A stretch of 28,280 nucleotides of DNA, taken from IMG/VR virus record IMGVR_UViG_3300014720_000141, positions 1 to 28,280 of that record; one strand, 5' to 3'. Both the position numbers and the translations under genes were made by a program. Each line of letters opens with the position of its first letter. Positions within the stretch are counted from its first letter, which is position 1. The notes beneath the pieces were generated by a model. That model searched no databases. It saw only the letters and a program-made list of their open reading frames with translations, and had not been told where the DNA came from. Below, piece after piece: positions 6,157 through 28,280 of the stretch. Source of the DNA: a virus.

Positions 6157-7461
6157 ATGGCTACAGTAACATTTGAGGCTAGTCCGCTTACCAACTGCAC
6201 TTTACAACTTATTTTTCCAAGTGGAGGTGGAGTTCTTAATATTACCTCTACTTTTAGTTTTCCGTGGACTTTCAATCCGGTTTTATATGGGAGAGGTACA
6301 GATGAGCTGAATGGAACTTATATTTTCAACTGTGATGGGTGTGATTACACGGTTTTAGTATCTGATTATATTCTAACACCAACACCAACATTAACTGTCA
6401 CACAAACACCAACTGTAACACCTTCTACAACACCTACAAAAACACCAGGTGCTTCACCGGATTCGACACCAACTGTTACACCAACCCCTACTCTAACTTC
6501 TACAAATACATCAACACCAACAGTTACAGGTACACCTGGAGCTTCACCCACAATTACACCAACTATTACACCCACACCAACATCCACAAATACTCAAACA
6601 CCAACCCCAACTCCAACAATAACATCTACAGGAACACCAGGTGCCTCACCATCAGAAACTCCAACTGAAACACCAACTGAAACACCCACACCAACAGTTA
6701 CTAAAACCCCTGGTGCATCTGCTGATCCAACTCCTACTAATACCAAAACACCAACTACTACACCGACTACAACACCAACTGGTACATCTACACCAACGAT
6801 AACACCAACTGGTACATCTACACCAACGATAACACCAACTGGTACATCTACACCAACAATAACACCTACAGTCACACCTAGTTTATCATGCAAATTATGT
6901 GTAACTTACACTATTGATCAAACAGGAGTGGCTACAGGATACTATTCCTATTTGAATTGTAACGGTGATATAATAACAAGTTTTGCAGTTCTATCGGATT
7001 CTGTTATCGAAACAGAATGTATAGCTTCCGGAGAAATAACTTGGATTTCTGGTGGTTCGGGTATTGTTTCTCCGAATGTTGGTATCTGTGGTAATGTATG
7101 TATTCCATCACCTACACCATCGAAAACACCAACTCGGACACCCACAAAAACACCAACAGTCACTCCAACAAAAACACCAACCCCAACTCAAACCCTGTTC
7201 ATGTTCATGGGAAGGTCTACACCTGATGCTATCAACAGCCCAGGCGCTTGCCACACATACCAACCCACAAGAGCCTACTATAGTACGAAATCAATTAATT
7301 CACTCATAAATGGTGATATTATTTATGACAACATCGGTTTAACTCAACCCACAAATGGCGGGCAAAAATGGATCGCACTGACTGCTGAAGGTCAAGGTAA
7401 CAAGAAACCATTCCAGATCAATACGAATGGATCGATTATGTCAGTATATTACTGCCTATAA
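6157..7461 (+). CDS. Thr/Pro-rich repeat surface or virion protein
   Basis: A 434-residue protein with four parts. Residues 1-70 form a beta-rich N-terminal domain with two pairs of Cys (NCT, NCDGCD). Residues about 72-243 are low-complexity Thr/Pro with recurring TPGASP and PTPT units, including three near-identical ten-residue [10 protein letters not shown] units. Residues about 244-320 form a second Cys-containing domain beginning [14 protein letters not shown] second short Thr/Pro stalk follows, then a C-terminal domain (about 345-434) starting [20 protein letters not shown]. There is no signal peptide, so it is probably a virion protein such as a decoration or fibre-associated stalk rather than a secreted one. 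The modular domain-stalk-domain layout resembles adhesive or mucin-like phage proteins; binding target unknown. Antisense frames through the repeat stay open because of composition and are not genes. Confidence 0.85.
6781..6870 (+). repeat. 30-nt tandem repeat, three units, in the Thr/Pro gene
   Basis: Units at 6781-6810 and 6811-6840 are identical and 6841-6870 differs at a few bases near its end. Each encodes [10 protein letters not shown]. Near-identity indicates recent duplication or ongoing length change. Confidence 0.9.
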
Positions 7462-13800: not shown

Positions 13801-14451
13801 TTATGGAAGTTCCTCAGTATCTTCTTCTCTTTCTCCTTCTCCTTCACCAGTTTCTTCTTCATCTTCTAAATCTTCAAAATCTTCATCTTCAGGTTCACCT
13901 TGTCCTTGAACTTGTGTTTGAACTTGAACTTGACCTTGAGCCTGTCCTTGACCTTGAGTCTGTCCTTGACCTTGAGTCTGTCCTTGACCTTGAGCCTGTC
14001 CTTGAGCCTGTCCTTGACCTTGAGCCTGTCCTTGAGCCTGTCCTTGACCTTGAGCCTGTCCTTGTGGTTGAGCCTGTCCTTGTGGTTGAGCCTGTCCTTG
14101 TGGTTGAGCCTGTCCTTGTGGTTGAGCCTGTCCTTGACCTTGAGCCTGACGTTGTGTCTGTGATGGGCCACCCATTAAAGCATTCGCTGGAATTTTATCA
14201 GCATCCAAATAATTAAGATTTATATGCTTGATTATTTCTTCAGCGATATCCACATCACCGAAAAACTGTCTAAGATTATTACCAGTGACATCCTTAACTT
14301 TTTTAACATATGCGTTGATGAGACTTTGTGGAATATCAACCATAGTTCTTACCTTATAAATATCATTTACTTGAAGAACTGACTCATTGATGATATCTTC
14401 TCTTCTTTTTTGTTTTTGGTAAGAATTAAATCTAGCTACATAACTTTTCAT
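13801..14451 (-). CDS. Gln/Gly/Ala/Pro repeat protein with acidic tail
   Basis: A 216-residue protein. Residues 1-95 form an ordinary helical domain (MKSYVARFNSYQKQKRRED, KVRTMVDIPQSLINAYVKKV). Residues about 96-180 are a low-complexity run built from AQGQ, AQPQGQ and TQGQ units, and the last 35 residues are almost entirely Glu/Asp/Gly. No signal peptide or membrane segment is present. The layout of a globular head, an extended Gln-rich spacer and an acidic tail could suit a virion linker or scaffolding protein, but I do not recognise the family. All other frames through the repeat are open because of the repeat itself, so overlapping ORFs there are artefacts. A canonical TATAAATA lies upstream. 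Confidence 0.8.
   Translation of the reverse strand: MKSYVARFNSYQKQKRREDIINESVLQVNDIYKVRTMVDIPQSLINAYVKKVKDVTGNNLRQFFGDVDIAEEIIKHINLNYLDADKIPANALMGGPSQTQRQAQGQGQAQPQGQAQPQGQAQPQGQAQPQGQAQGQGQAQGQAQGQGQAQGQAQGQGQTQGQGQTQGQGQAQGQVQVQTQVQGQGEPEDEDFEDLEDEEETGEGEGEREEDTEELP
13915..14155 (-). repeat. Six-base-periodic tandem repeats in the Gln/Gly gene
   Basis: An array built on hexamers such as CAAGGA/CAGGCT. It includes four identical 18-nt units at 14055-14126, each encoding AQPQGQ, and variable AQGQ/TQGQ units between about 13940 and 14054. Identical neighbouring units suggest length instability. Confidence 0.9.
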
Positions 14452-15486: not shown

Positions 15487-15771
15487 ATGTCTAAAACAAT
15501 CACCAGAGACAAAACCGAAGAAAAGCTAGACCAGATTTATTCTTCTGGTTATGTTCTTTATCTACATAACGACGATCATAATAGCTTTCAACATGTAATC
15601 AATTGCCTCATTGAGTTTTGTGATCATGATTTCGATCAAGCTAACCAGTGCGCACACATTGTCCATTTCAGAGGTATTTGTGATGTAAAGAGAGGCACAA
15701 AATCAGAAGTTGAAAAGCCTTACGAAGCTCTAAAACTTAATGGTTTATCCGTTACTATTGAAGTAGTTTAA
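15487..15771 (+). CDS. clpS: ClpS-like N-end-rule adaptor
   Basis: A 94-residue protein that matches ClpS (E. coli 106 residues) over almost its entire length. ClpS binds proteins with destabilising N-terminal residues and delivers them to the ClpAP or ClpCP protease. The N-degron pocket residues are visible: YLHNDDHNSF gives Asn28, Asp29 and Asp30, and AHIVHFRGICDVKRG gives His60. The spacing follows cellular ClpS, and from memory QANQCAHIVH...G.CDVKRG is closest to Bacteroidota ClpS proteins, suggesting capture from a host. The N-terminal extension that contacts the ClpA N-domain is short (about 20 residues). Its TAA stop overlaps the terminase stop on the opposite strand. Possible roles are redirecting or blocking host proteolysis; neither is demonstrated. 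Confidence 0.88.
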   Translation: MSKTITRDKTEEKLDQIYSSGYVLYLHNDDHNSFQHVINCLIEFCDHDFDQANQCAHIVHFRGICDVKRGTKSEVEKPYEALKLNGLSVTIEVV

Positions 15772-20663: not shown

Positions 20664-23369
20664 ATGCGGTATATTCTTAGAAGAGATACTTTTTTAGAAA
20701 AAGATAAGATAAATGAAGTTGTAAAAAATGATTTAACTTGGGGTGGATCTCTTTTTGGTAGGTTAATTAATTCAACAGTGCGTTTAGCACTGTTGAATTA
20801 TGATTCAATGATGATAGATGGATGCTTAGAAAATATTAGAAATACTATCTATGAAATTCTTCGTGAAAGTATGAATAAAGATCTAAGAGTAAAATTCTAC
20901 CGCCTCAGAATTAAAAATTTAGTAGCTCAAATAAAAGACGTTTCTCTAGCTAACAATACGGCTTTTCCAGATCACGATTCTAGAATCGACTGTTCACCTG
21001 GTACTCCGGGTAATACTAAATTGAATAGATTAATTGGGGCAGTTGGAAATGACACTGACATGGCCGCAACCCCAGATATTTTAGATAGGTGGAAAGATTT
21101 ACCAACTGGTTGTTTAATCGATCAGTTATTGAGTGAGATTGAAAATTCACCCGAGCTGAGAAGACTTTATAAAAGAGAAGAACTAGATGATCTTAGAGAT
21201 ATACATTCCGACTACGCTATTGAACTTAGAAGATACAGATGGAGTAAATGCAACCGAGGCCATGATCTAGGAGGTGATGATGCTCGTAACAAGCAATGGA
21301 AAGGTCGTAGAGTTGTATCAGATTCTGATGAGGTGTTAAGAAGAGAAATATCTGTAAAAGCTAATGAATCAATCAGTAGAAGGATATTTAAGAGGTTTTC
21401 TGAGTATGAAGAATATAGAGCGTTATTAGAATCTAAGAAGAAGAAAAAGACGAAAGATTGGTCATCAACAAGTACATCCAATAGAAATATTAACTACCAG
21501 ATTACACCTAATCAACAACAGCAACAAAATGTATTCAATATAAGCCCAATATTCCAAAATAATCCACACTTTCAACAACAAGCAAATCCATCAATTAATG
21601 TGAATACTGGTTCAGGAAGACGAGGTGGGTCAAGAAGTCTTGGTTCTATAACTACCTCAACTACAACTATTGGAGGTGGATCTATAACTACCTCAACTAC
21701 AACAATTGCTGGTGGAACTACAACTACCTCAACTACGACTATTGCAGGAGGACCTACAACTACCTCAACTACGACTATTGCAGGAGGACCTACAACTACC
21801 TCAACTACGACTATTGCAGGAGGACCTACAACTACCTCAACTACGTCTACAACAACTAAAAAAGAAAAATATATTGCTGATATTTGGAAAAGTTTCTTTC
21901 CCGAAGGATTAGGTGAATCCTATAATTATTCTATAAATGAATCAAAATCTAGAAATTTAGCAGCTTTCAGACTAACCAGGGATGATGAAAGAGAATTACA
22001 GGACCTGAATGCTCGATTAGTTGCAGGAACTTTTACTCTCAATTACTTGATAGCTTCAGACGCTATGGTCAGATTATTCAATTTATTAACAGTAGCCTAT
22101 AGATTATTTGCTACTGAAAATATACCATCAGGTAGGCCAGGTGGAAGAGTATCCATGTTCACTTTTCAACAATATCAAAAATTGGCAGGTGCAGATAAAT
22201 CCAGTGCAGCTGGAAGCACATCTAAAGATGGTGGGGGTGAAGCAATAATTCCCGGACCTGGACCTTGGGCAAAAGTCAAAGTTTATAGAAAATTCCAAAG
22301 ATTTGTTAATGAACTTTTACAAGACCAAGAATTGAGAAAAATATTTTCTAATATAAATTTCAATTATCCAGGATCCGAGGATAAATTCAACGATTCTTAC
22401 AATTTTCGGTTAATCAAAGAAAATGAAGATCCCTCAAAAAAACCTGAAATTACTAAAAAAGGTCAGATGGGCCCAGTTTTATTCAATCTACTTCAAGATT
22501 TAGCCACTCCATCAAAATGTAGAGGTGAAGATTTAATTGATGAGGCTACACGTAAATATTTTGGTGTTTCTATTCCCGAAAAGATAGAGCTGAAAAACGC
22601 TGCGAGTAAAGATAAAAATGATGACACTAATGTCAATTACCTAAGATGGCAAGAAAAAAGAGGACCATTCAAGCCAGGACAAAAATACAACTGGTGCGTT
22701 CCAGTGAGTCCGAAAACTGATTACGATTCAAATAAAGTCAAAGATGATGCAGATGACAGATTAGTAGATAAGACTGGATCAAAAGTAATTGTTTTTATAA
22801 CCGGACTAGGAAACCCAACTCCTATCGACAAAATCCAACTTACTCATAATGGTGTTCAGCTAAAATTTTATCCGGTGAAAATTACATTTAAAACTCCTTT
22901 AGTTGCTAACGATTACTATGGGAAAAATAGATCTGATTACGATGGATACCAAGACTATAGTAATACTTCAACCCCAGCGCCATCTATTTATTATGGGTAT
23001 TGCTGTGCACGTCCTAATAATGTATTCTGGTTATTTTATGTTAAACTTGAGGAACCAATCACAGAAGTGCATTTTCAAAAAGTTGAAATCACACCCGATA
23101 CCTTCGCTGATTTGAATGACCCAAAATCCGATGGCAAATCTGGTTCAGATCTAATCAAGTTATCCACTCTATATGATGTGAAAAATGGAGAAATTTCTTC
23201 ACATACTGAAAAAGTTGATAGTAATCCCGACGACAGAGCAAATTTTGATAGTTTTTACAACCGGAACTTGGATATTACACCATCAATTACGTTTAAGGAA
23301 TACATGGAAAAAATCTTAGATGTTACAGTAGTCGCAAATCATGATCGTCTTGGTGAATTAATATTGTAG
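20664..23369 (+). CDS. Large modular protein with Thr/Ser repeat spacer, probable virion protein
   Basis: A 901-residue protein, unrecognised as a whole. Residues 1-265 are a helical, highly charged domain (RRDTFLEKDKINEVVKNDL, LRVKFYRLRIKNLVAQIKD). Residues about 270-325 are Gln/Asn-rich (ITPNQQQQQNVFNISPIFQN). Residues about 329-400 are a Thr/Ser/Gly spacer made of 12-residue TTTSTTTIAGGP units. Residues about 405-620 form a second helical domain (YIADIWKSFFPEGLGESYNY), and residues about 690-830 a beta-rich domain (VIVFITGLGNPTPIDKIQLT, FWLFYVKLEEPITEVHFQKV) resembling a carbohydrate-binding-like sandwich. No signal peptide is seen. The layout suits a virion protein with a flexible linker, but this is inference. 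A perfect 14-bp inverted repeat lies inside the 5' coding region. Confidence 0.8.
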   Translation: MRYILRRDTFLEKDKINEVVKNDLTWGGSLFGRLINSTVRLALLNYDSMMIDGCLENIRNTIYEILRESMNKDLRVKFYRLRIKNLVAQIKDVSLANNTAFPDHDSRIDCSPGTPGNTKLNRLIGAVGNDTDMAATPDILDRWKDLPTGCLIDQLLSEIENSPELRRLYKREELDDLRDIHSDYAIELRRYRWSKCNRGHDLGGDDARNKQWKGRRVVSDSDEVLRREISVKANESISRRIFKRFSEYEEYRALLESKKKKKTKDWSSTSTSNRNINYQITPNQQQQQNVFNISPIFQNNPHFQQQANPSINVNTGSGRRGGSRSLGSITTSTTTIGGGSITTSTTTIAGGTTTTSTTTIAGGPTTTSTTTIAGGPTTTSTTTIAGGPTTTSTTSTTTKKEKYIADIWKSFFPEGLGESYNYSINESKSRNLAAFRLTRDDERELQDLNARLVAGTFTLNYLIASDAMVRLFNLLTVAYRLFATENIPSGRPGGRVSMFTFQQYQKLAGADKSSAAGSTSKDGGGEAIIPGPGPWAKVKVYRKFQRFVNELLQDQELRKIFSNINFNYPGSEDKFNDSYNFRLIKENEDPSKKPEITKKGQMGPVLFNLLQDLATPSKCRGEDLIDEATRKYFGVSIPEKIELKNAASKDKNDDTNVNYLRWQEKRGPFKPGQKYNWCVPVSPKTDYDSNKVKDDADDRLVDKTGSKVIVFITGLGNPTPIDKIQLTHNGVQLKFYPVKITFKTPLVANDYYGKNRSDYDGYQDYSNTSTPAPSIYYGYCCARPNNVFWLFYVKLEEPITEVHFQKVEITPDTFADLNDPKSDGKSGSDLIKLSTLYDVKNGEISSHTEKVDSNPDDRANFDSFYNRNLDITPSITFKEYMEKILDVTVVANHDRLGELIL
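20768..20800. repeat. Perfect 14-bp inverted repeat inside a coding region
   Basis: TAATTCAACAGTGC, loop GTTTA, GCACTGTTGAATTA. It encodes part of INSTVRLALLNYDS about 105 bases after the start codon. The stem is longer and more GC-containing than expected by chance in this AT-rich gene. There is no T-tract, so it is not a simple terminator. Confidence 0.85.
21648..21845 (+). repeat. 36-nt tandem repeat, five and a half units
   Basis: Units start at 21648, 21684, 21720, 21756, 21792 and (partial) 21828. Units three to five are identical; the first two have diverged. Each encodes TTSTTTIAGGPT-type text in frame with the surrounding protein, so length changes preserve the frame. Confidence 0.92.
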
Positions 23370-23992: not shown

Positions 23993-24343
23993 ATGGGACT
24001 ACTTACAAAACTACTCTACAACACAGAGTATCAAAAAGTTGAGCCGGACGAACGGTTCACTTTCATGCTGCAAACTATGCAGTCTAATAGATGGAAGATC
24101 ACACTGATTATTCTATCAACATTTTTCTTTATAATCTTTGGTATAGTCATGGCCGTACTATTCAAAGCTACAATTGCCGAAGCCTGGAAAGAACTTTTAC
24201 TTATCCTTCTAGGTGCTTTTGTTGGTAATTTGAACAAAGTAATTGATTTCTGGTTCTCAAACGAAGACAGAGATAAAATGCTCGTTCAAAAAATGGATGA
24301 AGAAGACGGAGTGTCTCTCTCATCTGCAAATACAACAGGATAA
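23993..24343 (+). CDS. Two-TM holin-like protein
   Basis: A 116-residue protein with two hydrophobic segments, residues about 34-57 (KITLIILSTFFFIIFGIVMA) and about 65-83 (WKELLLILLGAFVGNLNKVI), joined by a short loop. The N-terminus is polar and charged, and the C-terminus acidic (DKMLVQKMDEEDG). Size, two-TM topology and the GAFVGNLNKVIDFWF text resemble class II phage holins and holin-like families, which make the inner membrane permeable to endolysin at lysis. No endolysin gene is visible here, so the assignment is tentative. It stands at the head of a plus-strand series of exported proteins. Confidence 0.65.
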   Translation: MGLLTKLLYNTEYQKVEPDERFTFMLQTMQSNRWKITLIILSTFFFIIFGIVMAVLFKATIAEAWKELLLILLGAFVGNLNKVIDFWFSNEDRDKMLVQKMDEEDGVSLSSANTTG

Positions 24344-24348
24344 TAGCC

Positions 24349-26250
24349 ATGAAAAAGTTTCTTGTTGGGCTTTTTGCTCTAATAACGCTAAATGCGTTCG
24401 GCCAAAACGGTAGAAATGAAGTTTTGATCTCACCAAACTCATCTTCACCACACTTTATTATTGACACTGTGTTTACACTTGGTAGCATTCTTCAAGATAC
24501 TACAGTTGTTTATCTTCACTATCACAACCCGACCTTAACGAACTATGCTGGTTTTCAGGTAAGGTTTTTCTATCCGCAATCTTCATTCAAACAGCCTATC
24601 GTTAAATGGGGACCTACTACTACTTCGATCGTTACTAAATACGGTTCGTATTATTCTCAACCAGGTTGGGTTAACGCAACTGCTATTTATACCGGTTCAT
24701 CTGCTGTTTTTGATTGGCCAGATGGTGCTGTGTTTGAAGTTTTACTACCACACGCAGTTGGTTTCAATCCTTCATCGGTAGACTCACTGAGAGTAACGGG
24801 TATTCCAACATACAACAATATAGCTACAACTACAAGTGGTATCGATAATACTCTAGGAACATACAACTTAGGTGGTAGATTTCAGATGGATACTATTTCT
24901 ATACCGGTTTCGGTATTGAATGTTGATGGCACACCAGCAAGTGGAATGCCATTTGCCTTTGACTATAAACTAAAGTCAGAACAAACATATCAAAGAGGTC
25001 AAAGATTCACTACCGATGCCATCGGTATTGCTGGTATCAAAATACCTTACGATACTTCTTTCTACGACGTGAAATTAGTATCAAACTTAGATACTTTATC
25101 CGACAATTCAGCTATTAATATCACTGATGCTTATCGCCTTTCTGATATGAGTATTTACGCTGACACGGCTCAATCCTATGAGTTTCAACAAGCTGACGTA
25201 AATAGAAGTGGTTCGATTTCAGTTTCTGATGCGTATCTTATATTCAATCGTCTAGCTACTGGAAGAACAACTTGGTCACCAGTTGTTGCCAACGAATACA
25301 ACGTAAGATATTATACACCAGGTGAATACGATCAAATAATAACTAACCCGAACACATTCCAAACTTCAATTATTGGAACAACTTTCATTGATCTATTACT
25401 TAATGGTATGAGTTCGATGAGTTACATTGGATATGTTCTTGGTGATGTTACCGGAACAGGTCTTAACAACGTATCTTTCCAAATACAGAGACTTAATACT
25501 GGAAATTCTGGAACTTCTTATGTTCTAGATCAAGGTATGATCTACCAAAACATCAAAGATTCAGTTCAATTTAGAATACCAAAACTTACTATTTCCGGTG
25601 ATAATACGGTAGATGTTAATGTTACACTTATCACTCACGGAAATAAAGTAGGAGCATCACAAATTGGTCTTAAATATGATCCTCAAATCTTCAAGTTTGT
25701 AGGTGTATCTGTAGGTCCAGAAGCAAGTTATTGGAACTCATTTATCTCTTCTAAATCAGGTGAAATCTTATGGGGTGGTCACGAATCAAAAATGGCACCT
25801 TCTTTAATCACCAATCCTACACAAATGTTTAACTTCAAATTTGAAATCTTAAACAATAACTGGGAAGAAGCTCCTATACAAATCATTAACAAAGCGGCTG
25901 GTAGTGAAAAAGCACAAGATTTAAATATTATTCCTTCACCTACTGATGCTACAATCGTTAATGGTAGAAGAGCTAGAGATCTTGTAGATCAACTTGTAAA
26001 TGGTTTCAGAGTGTATCCAAACCCAGTCGTAGATGAAATGTATGTAGATTATTTCCAAACAGCACCAGGCAATCTAACTTCAGAAATTTTCGATTTATCT
26101 GGAAAAATACACAGTAGAGAAACACAATTCGTAGCACAAGATCAAACCGTTACCAGAAGAATCGAAACAAACACTCTCGAGCCTGGCTTATATTTTGTTA
26201 GATTAACTACAGACACGAAACAAAAAATATATAAGTTTATTAAAAAATAA
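24349..26250 (+). CDS. Exported protein with dockerin-like repeats and T9SS type A sorting domain
   Basis: A 633-residue protein starting five bases after the holin-like gene. Residues 1-19 form a Sec signal peptide (MKKFLVGLFALITLNAFGQ). Residues about 20-180 form a beta-rich domain. Dockerin-like EF-hand segments are seen at about 254-268 (SAINITDAYRLSDMS) and 281-305 (ADVNRSGSISVSDAYLIF, ligand positions Asp283, Asn285, Ser287, Asp294), with a further GDVTGTG at 365-371. Residues about 404-515 resemble a cohesin or similar beta-sandwich (VDVNVTLITHGNKVGASQIG, LKYDPQIFKFVGV). Residues 552-633 match the Bacteroidota T9SS type A C-terminal domain: FRVYPNPVVDEMYVDY, IFDLSGKI, LEPGLYFVRLTTDTKQKIYK and a basic end. 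T9SS domains send proteins across the outer membrane to the surface. This implies the phage exports a protein through the host's T9SS. Function otherwise unknown. Confidence 0.88.
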   Translation: MKKFLVGLFALITLNAFGQNGRNEVLISPNSSSPHFIIDTVFTLGSILQDTTVVYLHYHNPTLTNYAGFQVRFFYPQSSFKQPIVKWGPTTTSIVTKYGSYYSQPGWVNATAIYTGSSAVFDWPDGAVFEVLLPHAVGFNPSSVDSLRVTGIPTYNNIATTTSGIDNTLGTYNLGGRFQMDTISIPVSVLNVDGTPASGMPFAFDYKLKSEQTYQRGQRFTTDAIGIAGIKIPYDTSFYDVKLVSNLDTLSDNSAINITDAYRLSDMSIYADTAQSYEFQQADVNRSGSISVSDAYLIFNRLATGRTTWSPVVANEYNVRYYTPGEYDQIITNPNTFQTSIIGTTFIDLLLNGMSSMSYIGYVLGDVTGTGLNNVSFQIQRLNTGNSGTSYVLDQGMIYQNIKDSVQFRIPKLTISGDNTVDVNVTLITHGNKVGASQIGLKYDPQIFKFVGVSVGPEASYWNSFISSKSGEILWGGHESKMAPSLITNPTQMFNFKFEILNNNWEEAPIQIINKAAGSEKAQDLNIIPSPTDATIVNGRRARDLVDQLVNGFRVYPNPVVDEMYVDYFQTAPGNLTSEIFDLSGKIHSRETQFVAQDQTVTRRIETNTLEPGLYFVRLTTDTKQKIYKFIKK

Positions 26251-26264
26251 AAAAAATAAAAACT

Positions 26265-26669
26265 ATGGCAGAAGAAACCGAAAACGATGGCTCCTGGGGT
26301 GGATTGAAAAAAACCATCATAGGCACACTAGCAACTGTAGTAACAGGTGGTGGTGTATGGATTTCTACTACTCTCTTCGGAGGTGGTGGAAACGACAATG
26401 AAGGTGAAAAAACCGAGCAAGCAGCTCCGGCTGCCGCTCCGGTTATTAACCTTAACTTAGAGAATAACAACCAAAATAATTCTTCAAGTAACTCTGGTGC
26501 TGGAGGAACGACCGTTATTAGAGAAAGGGAAACTATCAGAGAAGTAGCTCCTGCTACACAAACGGCACCAGCACCAGCTGCTGCTCCTGTTGAAGAAAAG
26601 AAAGAAACTCCAGCCGAAAGGATGAAGAGACTTAGAGCAAAACAACAAGAACAGGAGGGTGAAGAATGA
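26265..26669 (+). CDS. Small single-TM protein with Ala/Pro/Glu tail
   Basis: A 134-residue protein. One hydrophobic segment lies at residues about 18-38 (TIIGTLATVVTGGGVWISTT) after a short acidic N-terminus. It is followed by Gly/Asn-rich and Ala/Pro-rich low-complexity text (INLNLENNNQNNSSSNSGAG) and a basic/acidic helical C-terminus (AERMKRLRAKQQEQEGEE). There is no cleavable signal. Its stop overlaps the start of the CsgG-like gene in an ATGA arrangement. It may be an inner-membrane partner of the CsgG-like channel or an antiholin-type protein; neither is supported beyond adjacency and topology. Confidence 0.75.
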   Translation: MAEETENDGSWGGLKKTIIGTLATVVTGGGVWISTTLFGGGGNDNEGEKTEQAAPAAAPVINLNLENNNQNNSSSNSGAGGTTVIRERETIREVAPATQTAPAPAAAPVEEKKETPAERMKRLRAKQQEQEGEE

Positions 26670-27358
26670 AAAAGTGGTTATCAATATTCTCACTTAGCCT
26701 TCTAGTATTGGTTGGTTGTAAATCTAGCATTTCAACTACTCAATACCAAGCAGACTTTGAAAAAACAGATAGAACATTAGAGTCTGTCTCAACCTATACG
26801 GGTAAAAAACAAACCGTACAGCTTTCAAAACTGAATGTCAACAAAGAACTCTGGGAAACTTTTCCTGAACTAAGGGAAAAAAGACTAGGTCTTGGTGTAT
26901 CTAACCGTATTGTAGAAAATCTACTTTATACCAATCGTTTCGAATTTACCGAAGAAAAAGACGCCGTAGTCAATCAAATGCTCGACGCCTGGGAAAAGAA
27001 AATTGACGGTCTTGATGATGGTAAAACTAAACTAAAAATGGAGGGTATCCGCTTACCAAAATATATCGTTTACGCAGAGATTTATGATTTTTCTGTATCA
27101 TACTCAGAAAACTACGATAAAGGTAAGTTAAAGAAAACCAATACTACCATTATGGGTATTCAAATTCGTTTAGTTTCCGTAGAAAATTCACAATATATCG
27201 TTGCCTCTGGTCAAGGTCAATCCACACAATTTGGTGAGGGTTACTTCAAGAATCCAGAAATGGGATTTGACCAATCAACTGTTGGTATTGCTACTCAGAA
27301 AGCTTTAGAGGTTGCTACAATGAACCTAGTAAAGCGTCTAGAGCAAAATGGTTGGTAA
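26666..27358 (+). CDS. CsgG-like outer-membrane lipoprotein (curli-type secretion channel family)
   Basis: A 230-residue protein (E. coli CsgG is 277). The signal peptide ends in a lipobox, LLVLVGC, with Cys18 as the lipid-modified residue. The remainder follows the CsgG/HfaB pattern: an N-terminal strand plus NRIVENLLYTNRFEFTEEKD (the region before the family's ER/LE...L segment), then YIVYAEIYDFSVSYSENYDK, IMGIQIRLVSVENSQYIVAS (the R-L-V-d...G segment), and a C-terminal helix ATQKALEVATMNLVKRLEQ. CsgG forms a nonameric outer-membrane pore that exports curli subunits. It overlaps its upstream neighbour by four bases and its downstream neighbour by eleven. Export of the Gly/Ser-rich downstream product is a reasonable inference but not shown. 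Confidence 0.82.
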   Translation: MKKWLSIFSLSLLVLVGCKSSISTTQYQADFEKTDRTLESVSTYTGKKQTVQLSKLNVNKELWETFPELREKRLGLGVSNRIVENLLYTNRFEFTEEKDAVVNQMLDAWEKKIDGLDDGKTKLKMEGIRLPKYIVYAEIYDFSVSYSENYDKGKLKKTNTTIMGIQIRLVSVENSQYIVASGQGQSTQFGEGYFKNPEMGFDQSTVGIATQKALEVATMNLVKRLEQNGW

Positions 27359-28280
27359 ATTTCTATTATCTTTAATATTCACTCTTTGTATAGGTGGAAT
27401 TTTGAGCGTAAAAGCTCAGAGTTTCACCTATACTTATATAAACCCTTGTAACGGAAGACAACAATCCGTTCAATTAACAACACAAAGTTCGCAAGTTACT
27501 ATGTTTTTTGCAGGTCAAGCAAGAAACTTTACTTATAGTGAATTAGAGGCTGGTGCTTACGAACAATGGGTAACTTCGATTAGAAACTCATTACCAGTAG
27601 GTGCGAATCCTTGTGCGTCAGAAGCTGCAAGTGAAGCTACAAATGTTACAAACTTTATAGGAAGTGTTACTGCGAATAATGTAGCATCGCTCACTTCAGT
27701 TGTTTCTATGGCTAGTTCAATTGGAAGTTCAATAGGTGGTGTAGGTAGTGGTTCAGTAGGTAGTGGTTCAGTAGGTAGTGGTGATGGTAGTAGTGGTGAT
27801 GGTGGTAGTAGTGGGGAAAATAATTCGGGTTCGGGAAACTCAAACAATTCAGGTGGTTCAGTATCGGGAAATTCTGGTTCTGGTGGTAATGGTGGTGGAA
27901 CAAATTCTGGAGGACAAGGAGGTAGTTCCGGTAGTGGTTCAGGTGGTTCAGGTGGCTCAGGTGGCTCAGCATCTCCCGGCAACAATTCGGGATCTGGTGG
28001 AACTAATCCAAGATCAGGTGGCAATACCGGTGGCGGATCCGGAGAGGGAAGTTCAGAATCCGGAGGTGGTGTAACTGCTGTAGGTGAGCAGAATCAACAG
28101 GTATCAAGTGGTGGGGAGAGCGGTAGTGGAGATGGATCTGGATCATCCGGTGGTGGAAAATCATCAAGAGGCTCTTCTCGAGCAGCTAACGGCGCTCTTA
28201 TAGCAACTGGTGATATTGTCGTTATAAGAAACGATTCAGATATCACTAAAACAGGTAATGATAATTTTCGTTTTAATACC
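27348..28280 (+). CDS. Exported Gly/Ser-rich protein, partial, runs off right edge
   Basis: The ATG at 27348 lies inside the 3' end of the CsgG-like gene and opens a frame that stays open to the end of the window (311 codons). Residues 1-24 form a signal peptide (MVGKFLLSLIFTLCIGGILS, then VKAQ). Residues about 25-120 form a small domain with two Cys (NPCNGRQQSVQLTTQ, LPVGANPCASEAASEAT). Residues about 125-282 are an extended Gly/Ser/Asn spacer (units such as GSVGSGSVGSG, GGSGGSGGSA). From about residue 285 an ordered region resumes (NGALIATGDIVVIRNDSDIT). It is probably a surface or periplasmic protein exported with, or through, the CsgG-like channel. No repeat typical of amyloid curlins is visible in the part seen. 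Antisense Pro-rich frames opposite the spacer are artefacts. Confidence 0.85.
   Translation, partial: MVGKFLLSLIFTLCIGGILSVKAQSFTYTYINPCNGRQQSVQLTTQSSQVTMFFAGQARNFTYSELEAGAYEQWVTSIRNSLPVGANPCASEAASEATNVTNFIGSVTANNVASLTSVVSMASSIGSSIGGVGSGSVGSGSVGSGDGSSGDGGSSGENNSGSGNSNNSGGSVSGNSGSGGNGGGTNSGGQGGSSGSGSGGSGGSGGSASPGNNSGSGGTNPRSGGNTGGGSGEGSSESGGGVTAVGEQNQQVSSGGESGSGDGSGSSGGGKSSRGSSRAANGALIATGDIVVIRNDSDITKTGNDNFRFNT
27715..28165 (+). repeat. Gly/Ser-coding low-complexity tract
   Basis: Irregular repeats of GGT/TCA/AGT codons, including GGTAGTGGTTCA-type units near 27745-27780 and GGTTCAGGTGGC-type units near 27935-27970. The tract is prone to length variation and to assembly error. Confidence 0.85.

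Follow-up and report, generated by a model that had tools for sequence, protein, structure and literature searches.

The window, a virus record of 28,280 bases, carries at positions 24349..26250 a gene of 633 aa (plus strand, as are its domains and the adjoining module genes located below) whose product ends in a sorting signal for the type IX secretion system (T9SS). This raises the question of why a phage encodes a cargo for a secretion system of its host. The answer that we find fairly probable is that the protein is a phage-made surface scaffold, which uses the host T9SS and docks co-encoded lectins on the infected cell.

Domains and phage context of the cargo gene

Profile searches bore out the T9SS type A domain that the original prediction had placed at the C-terminus. 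Residues 555-633 (26011..26247), at the very C-terminus, matched TIGR04183 (E 4e-12, 45.9 bits, cut-off 23) and PF18962 (E 3e-11, 43.7 bits, cut-off 27), and a profile search of the PDB linked the domain to 8glk and 8glj (E 0.013 and 0.033, respectively). A type B domain was considered for the cargo and rejected, as no such match was obtained. The Sec signal peptide, also predicted earlier, was read from the sequence by eye in residues 1-19 (24349..24405) as MKKFLVGLFALITLNAFG, followed by Q, and its hydrophobic start is conserved in the relatives. A signal peptide and a motif-bearing C-terminal sorting domain (CTD) are what the protein has in common with the T9SS type A cargos (TIGR04183/PF18962) of Bacteroidota. 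Unlike these, it is phage-encoded, lies in a fixed phage neighborhood, and has two cohesin-type domains around an X-dockerin segment. No phage-encoded T9SS cargo was reported in the searched literature, which was mostly open-access and without preprints.

The predicted cohesin-like domain was recovered in residues 408-527 (25570..25929), which exceeded the threshold of the Pfam family Cohesin (PF00963; 30.3 bits, cut-off 24.1) and in a profile search matched the solved scaffoldin cohesins 2vn5 and 1g1k. A second, N-terminal cohesin-like beta-sandwich in residues 20-180 (24406..24888; roughly 20-140 on a narrower delimitation) had been missed. Its sequence matched the cellulosomal cohesins 4ums and 4uyp weakly (E 0.15 and 0.64), and comparison of the two cohesin-type domains by hhalign gave 18%, i.e., they are not clearly homologous. 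When residues 20-395 were modeled, pLDDT was mostly 73-91 across the first 130 residues, corresponding to the beta-sandwich, and mostly <50 in the poorly predicted dockerin region. The best PDB matches of this model in Foldseek were the CohI9-X-DocII fragments of Clostridium thermocellum CipA (4fl4 and 3kcp; E 1.5e-5 to 1.5e-4), with single cohesins ranking after them and low TM-scores of 0.27-0.33 for the multi-domain fit. The predicted fold thus supports a cohesin-X-dockerin arrangement and, because of this match, we read the scaffoldin-like cargo as signal peptide, cohesin-like domain, X module, dockerin-like segment, cohesin and T9SS CTD.

The X module (transthyretin/Ig-like), the dockerin-like segment and a conserved tail together occupy residues 183-385 (24895..25503). 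The dockerin-like character claimed in the original prediction held in part. One calcium loop is kept in the alignment of relatives (A11; N103 and D112 invariant, D101 nearly so) and the fold search backs it; the other repeat is degenerate, residues 252-302 reached 19.4 bits against Dockerin_1 (PF00404), under the cut-off of 22.9, and this family was matched in only 2 of the 30 cargo relatives. PHROGs held no family for the cargo, and a single-sequence search of the PDB returned no match, the profile searches having done better.

The cargo gene is located in a huge-phage contig of a Bacteroidota phage. The terminase of the window shares 61% identity with the one from a 642-kb phage, and replication in Bacteroidetes is predicted for the five genomes >634 kb in the huge-phage paper (PMC7162821). 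Other phage genes in the window encode a gp25-like baseplate protein and a clamp loader. A Bacteroidota promoter-like pattern was found 11 times in the window, with 7.4 matches expected, which is not clearly above chance. LR756502, whose terminase is the most similar one, encodes another T9SS-CTD protein elsewhere, and the 42 kb around its terminase (locus L013) contained no module genes. Cargo relatives with 74-99% identity are present in ten other viral contigs, and a 30% identical one in the isolate Flavobacterium phage vB_FspM_immuto (host Flavobacterium sp. LMO8; ‘immuto’ in short). Misassembly of host DNA into a phage contig, the concern attached to the original prediction, is excluded because these independent contigs and an isolate genome carry the gene.

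The CTD has been retained among the phage relatives: 29 of the 30 aligned cargo proteins or halves matched both PF18962 and Cohesin (Cohesin at E ≤ 0.01), and the sole non-matching sequence is presumably immuto gene 14, a half-protein in which neither domain was matched. For relatives with estimable dS, the dN/dS of the whole cargo was 0.06-0.13 (against L002, L004, L005, L006 and L016) and that of the CTD alone 0.14-0.35 for the same relatives, indicating that the CTD changes faster than the remainder; comparison with the more distant L030 gave 0.19 at a near-saturated dS. The cargo is under purifying selection. Chance uptake of a host gene that does not function in infection, or host DNA fused to the phage contig, is in keeping with the existence of host relatives of this architecture, but we consider it very improbable, as dozens of contigs and the isolate share the module, dN/dS is in the range just given, and the misassembly form is already refuted.

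Split cargo of immuto and the X-dockerin lectins

In immuto, the order is gene 13 (C-type lectin), genes 14-15 (a two-piece cargo), and genes 16, 17 and 18, which is the same as in the other loci except that the lectin precedes the cargo. The proteins of the cargo region are annotated only as hypothetical or cohesin domain-containing. The TAA stop of gene 14 directly follows its dockerin part (...GTGLN). Gene 15 begins a single base further on and encodes a hydrophobic signal peptide of its own, then the cohesin and the CTD. The split is located exactly between the dockerin and the second cohesin, with a signal peptide on each half. In cellulosomes, the primary and anchoring scaffoldins are separate chains, like the immuto halves. 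This split is the most telling indication, short of proof, that dockerin and cohesin associate.

The likeness to cellulosomes includes the cohesin-X-dockerin order in one chain, as in scaffoldins (CipA CohI9-X-DocII, and anchoring ones such as SdbA), the separate cohesin and anchor chain of immuto, and the co-encoding of dockerin-bearing partners. In contrast to cellulosomes, the phage system is viral, its partners are lectins and not cellulases, its anchor is a T9SS CTD, its dockerin signature is weak, and its docking is putative.

The X-dockerin of the cargo is homologous to that of the partner lectins (hhalign 99.4%, E 4e-21). Among 31 representative partners, 11 carry a C-type lectin domain, 11 a PA14 domain, two a laminin-G-like domain and one GEVED. 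Only one of the 76 non-cargo X-dockerin proteins, L084, has a CTD, and this is a truncated cargo. Since the lectins possess an X-dockerin but no T9SS signal, they would depend on docking to arrive at the surface or remain there. Docking to partners had been no more than hinted at in the original prediction; it is strengthened by the co-encoded X-dockerin lectins and the immuto split, although the binding is itself predicted from the domains.

A cellular counterpart of the cargo was found in one of 395 sampled genomes of the phylum, where only the dockerin region matched (L122). It encodes a long T9SS-type protein, whose X module, dockerin-like segment and T9SS-like C-terminus were recognized by eye. 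Proteins of this kind have these three parts on one chain in common with the cargo; L122 differs as a long, repeat-containing cell protein outside the module. A host-protein origin is therefore possible, and the phage scaffold may have been derived from an L122-like surface protein. Because L122 has a similar X-dockerin-CTD end, the modules may also serve architecture rather than docking. The cargo would then be a T9SS-exported surface shield without docking, with its cohesin, X and dockerin-like parts as structural remnants of a host-type surface protein, which would agree with the weak Dockerin_1 matches. We regard such a shield as quite unlikely: the partners share the X-dockerin yet lack the CTD, and the presence of the immuto dockerin and second cohesin on two chains with signal peptides is easiest to understand if the halves meet.

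Conserved gene module and its CsgG-fold lipoprotein

The original prediction described the gene itself well, and its single-gene view missed, besides the N-terminal cohesin-like domain, the multi-gene module to which the cargo belongs. The module order is T9SS cargo, small transmembrane (TM) protein, CsgG-fold lipoprotein, Gly/Ser-rich barrel-like protein, and secreted lectins (C-type, PA14). A 116-aa two-TM inner-membrane protein (23993..24343), holin-like by shape only, is encoded 5 bp upstream of the cargo gene in the window, and its place within the module differs in some relatives. Downstream follow a 134-aa single-TM protein with an Ala/Pro/Asn-rich tail (26265..26669), the outer-membrane lipoprotein with lipobox VLVGC (26666..27358), and a secreted protein (27348..28280, continuing past the window end) composed of an N-terminal domain, a Gly/Ser-rich linker and a C-terminal beta-barrel-like domain, the last of which was seen in relatives.

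Searching viral contigs for the lipoprotein revealed relatives in 432 stretches, 79 loci of which were kept; the counts below include only loci with enough sequence. The lipoprotein had a cohesin cargo upstream in 68 of 68 loci and was followed by the barrel-like protein in 76 of 76; the single-TM protein adjoined it in 65 of 68. Each of the 68 cargos has a CTD at its end, which was recognized by profile in 62; the six that the profile missed are nearly identical in this part to L076, which was recognized. At 56 of 72 loci, an X-dockerin-ended protein was encoded no more than 5 kb away, and at the remaining 16 none was detected. The module was not seen in the 395 sampled genomes and the barrel protein in none of them, while module-bearing controls were detected in the same scan. 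With the lipoprotein as query, a set of 84,980 species yielded four relatives (L093-L096): L096 has the full module with phage-like genes beside it, L095 has part of the module, and the cellular contigs of L093 and L094 have the lipoprotein gene only. A small secreted-looking protein is encoded after the lectins at L002:18444-18848, and related ORFs of ~132-140 aa recur at the same place; a 148-aa ORF at the post-lectin position of L096 shows weak similarity to the lipoprotein profile.

The AlphaFold2 model of the lipoprotein was of moderate quality (pLDDT 65.7, pTM 0.59), and its top 25 PDB matches in Foldseek were all CsgG, with a best E of 8e-10. Neither the lipoprotein of the window nor its 20 aligned relatives matched the Pfam family CsgG (PF03783), and the chromosomal relatives, which are 40-42% identical, exceeded the cut-off of this family. 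Phage-encoded CsgG has been described in pelagimyophages and phage Melnitz, where the functions suggested for it are sibling capture and the timing of lysis (PMC7029224, PMC9004378). The phage curli operons are alike in encoding a CsgG-fold lipoprotein and, in Pelagibacter phage HTVC008M, a PA14 protein. The module differs from them in its T9SS scaffold and X-dockerin lectins, in a CsgG too distant for a direct Pfam match, and in that Pfam found no CsgF or curlin repeat in the module genes of the window, a search that weak relatives could escape. A single protein of the HTVC008M operon joins PA14 and curlin repeats and, by analogy, would place a lectin on a curli-type carrier, an arrangement that parallels the module described here. 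This protein (gp18; L099:8710-10035) is annotated as hypothetical and might supply the curli-type subunit that is otherwise missing from phage curli operons. An Ignavibacteriales CsgG-like gene is located near a CHASE2 cyclase gene (L093:9956-15995), as is CsgG in HTVC008M.

The composition of the module also brings lysis into consideration. The CsgG-like pore, the barrel and the small TM proteins could breach or tune the outer membrane late in infection, with the cargo helping to weaken or strip the surface layer. In relatives, the block has an endolysin (PG_binding_1 + GH19) and tail genes in its vicinity, it is headed by the two-TM holin-like protein, and for phage Melnitz a function of CsgG/CsgF in the timing of lysis has been proposed (PMC9004378). 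A lysis or egress module nevertheless appears unlikely, as it leaves the conserved X-dockerin lectins, the two cohesin-type domains and the immuto split unexplained, and no recognizable hydrolase or protease domain was found in the cargo by Pfam domain search. A virion-attached adhesin was set aside because of the Sec signal peptides and the T9SS signal.

Proposed re-coating of the infected cell

The T9SS tag, the scaffold build, the plug-bearing lectins and the CsgG-like lipoprotein taken together suggest that the infected cell probably receives a new surface coat from the virus. According to its signals, the cargo would pass via Sec to the periplasm, where the CTD would hand it to the host T9SS for transport across the outer membrane and for anchoring or release. 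Its two cohesin-type domains and X-dockerin may bind other cargo copies and the downstream lectins. The CsgG-fold lipoprotein and the barrel-like protein could form the outer-membrane part, i.e., a pore, an anchor or an exit for the CTD-less partners. The outcome would be a lectin coat, most likely blocking or redirecting competing phages, or holding cells together and so helping the progeny to find new hosts. More tentatively, the module might constitute a cellulosome-like viral organelle, in which a T9SS-anchored scaffoldin carries exchangeable dockerin-tagged lectins, and a CsgG-type pore with its barrel partner exports or anchors the lectins that have no CTD; this extended version is conceivable rather than probable.

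If the scaffold reading is true, the module is a clear case of phages sending their own proteins through a large outer-membrane secretion machine of the host and altering its surface. It provides a defined parts list and, with immuto on Flavobacterium sp. LMO8, an isolate open to testing, and bears on why phages carry CsgG-type pores.

Further candidate T9SS cargos were observed in L116, L117, L118 and L100, including proteins of ~520 aa and one of 202 aa in a 642-kb phage; L116 and L100 exceeded the TIGR04183 cut-off, L117 matched only PF18962, and L118 was below the cut-off. A T9SS type B domain is encoded in another viral contig (L120:1474-3099, minus strand; TIGR04131 40.2, cut-off 35). 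The window itself encodes a ClpS protease adaptor (15487-15771, plus strand; PF02617, 52.2 bits) adjoining the terminase, and three low-complexity proteins: a Thr/Pro-rich one (6157-7461), one with Gln/Gly/Ala repeats (13801-14451), and a 901-aa protein with Thr-rich repeats (20664-23369), whose relatives vary in length.
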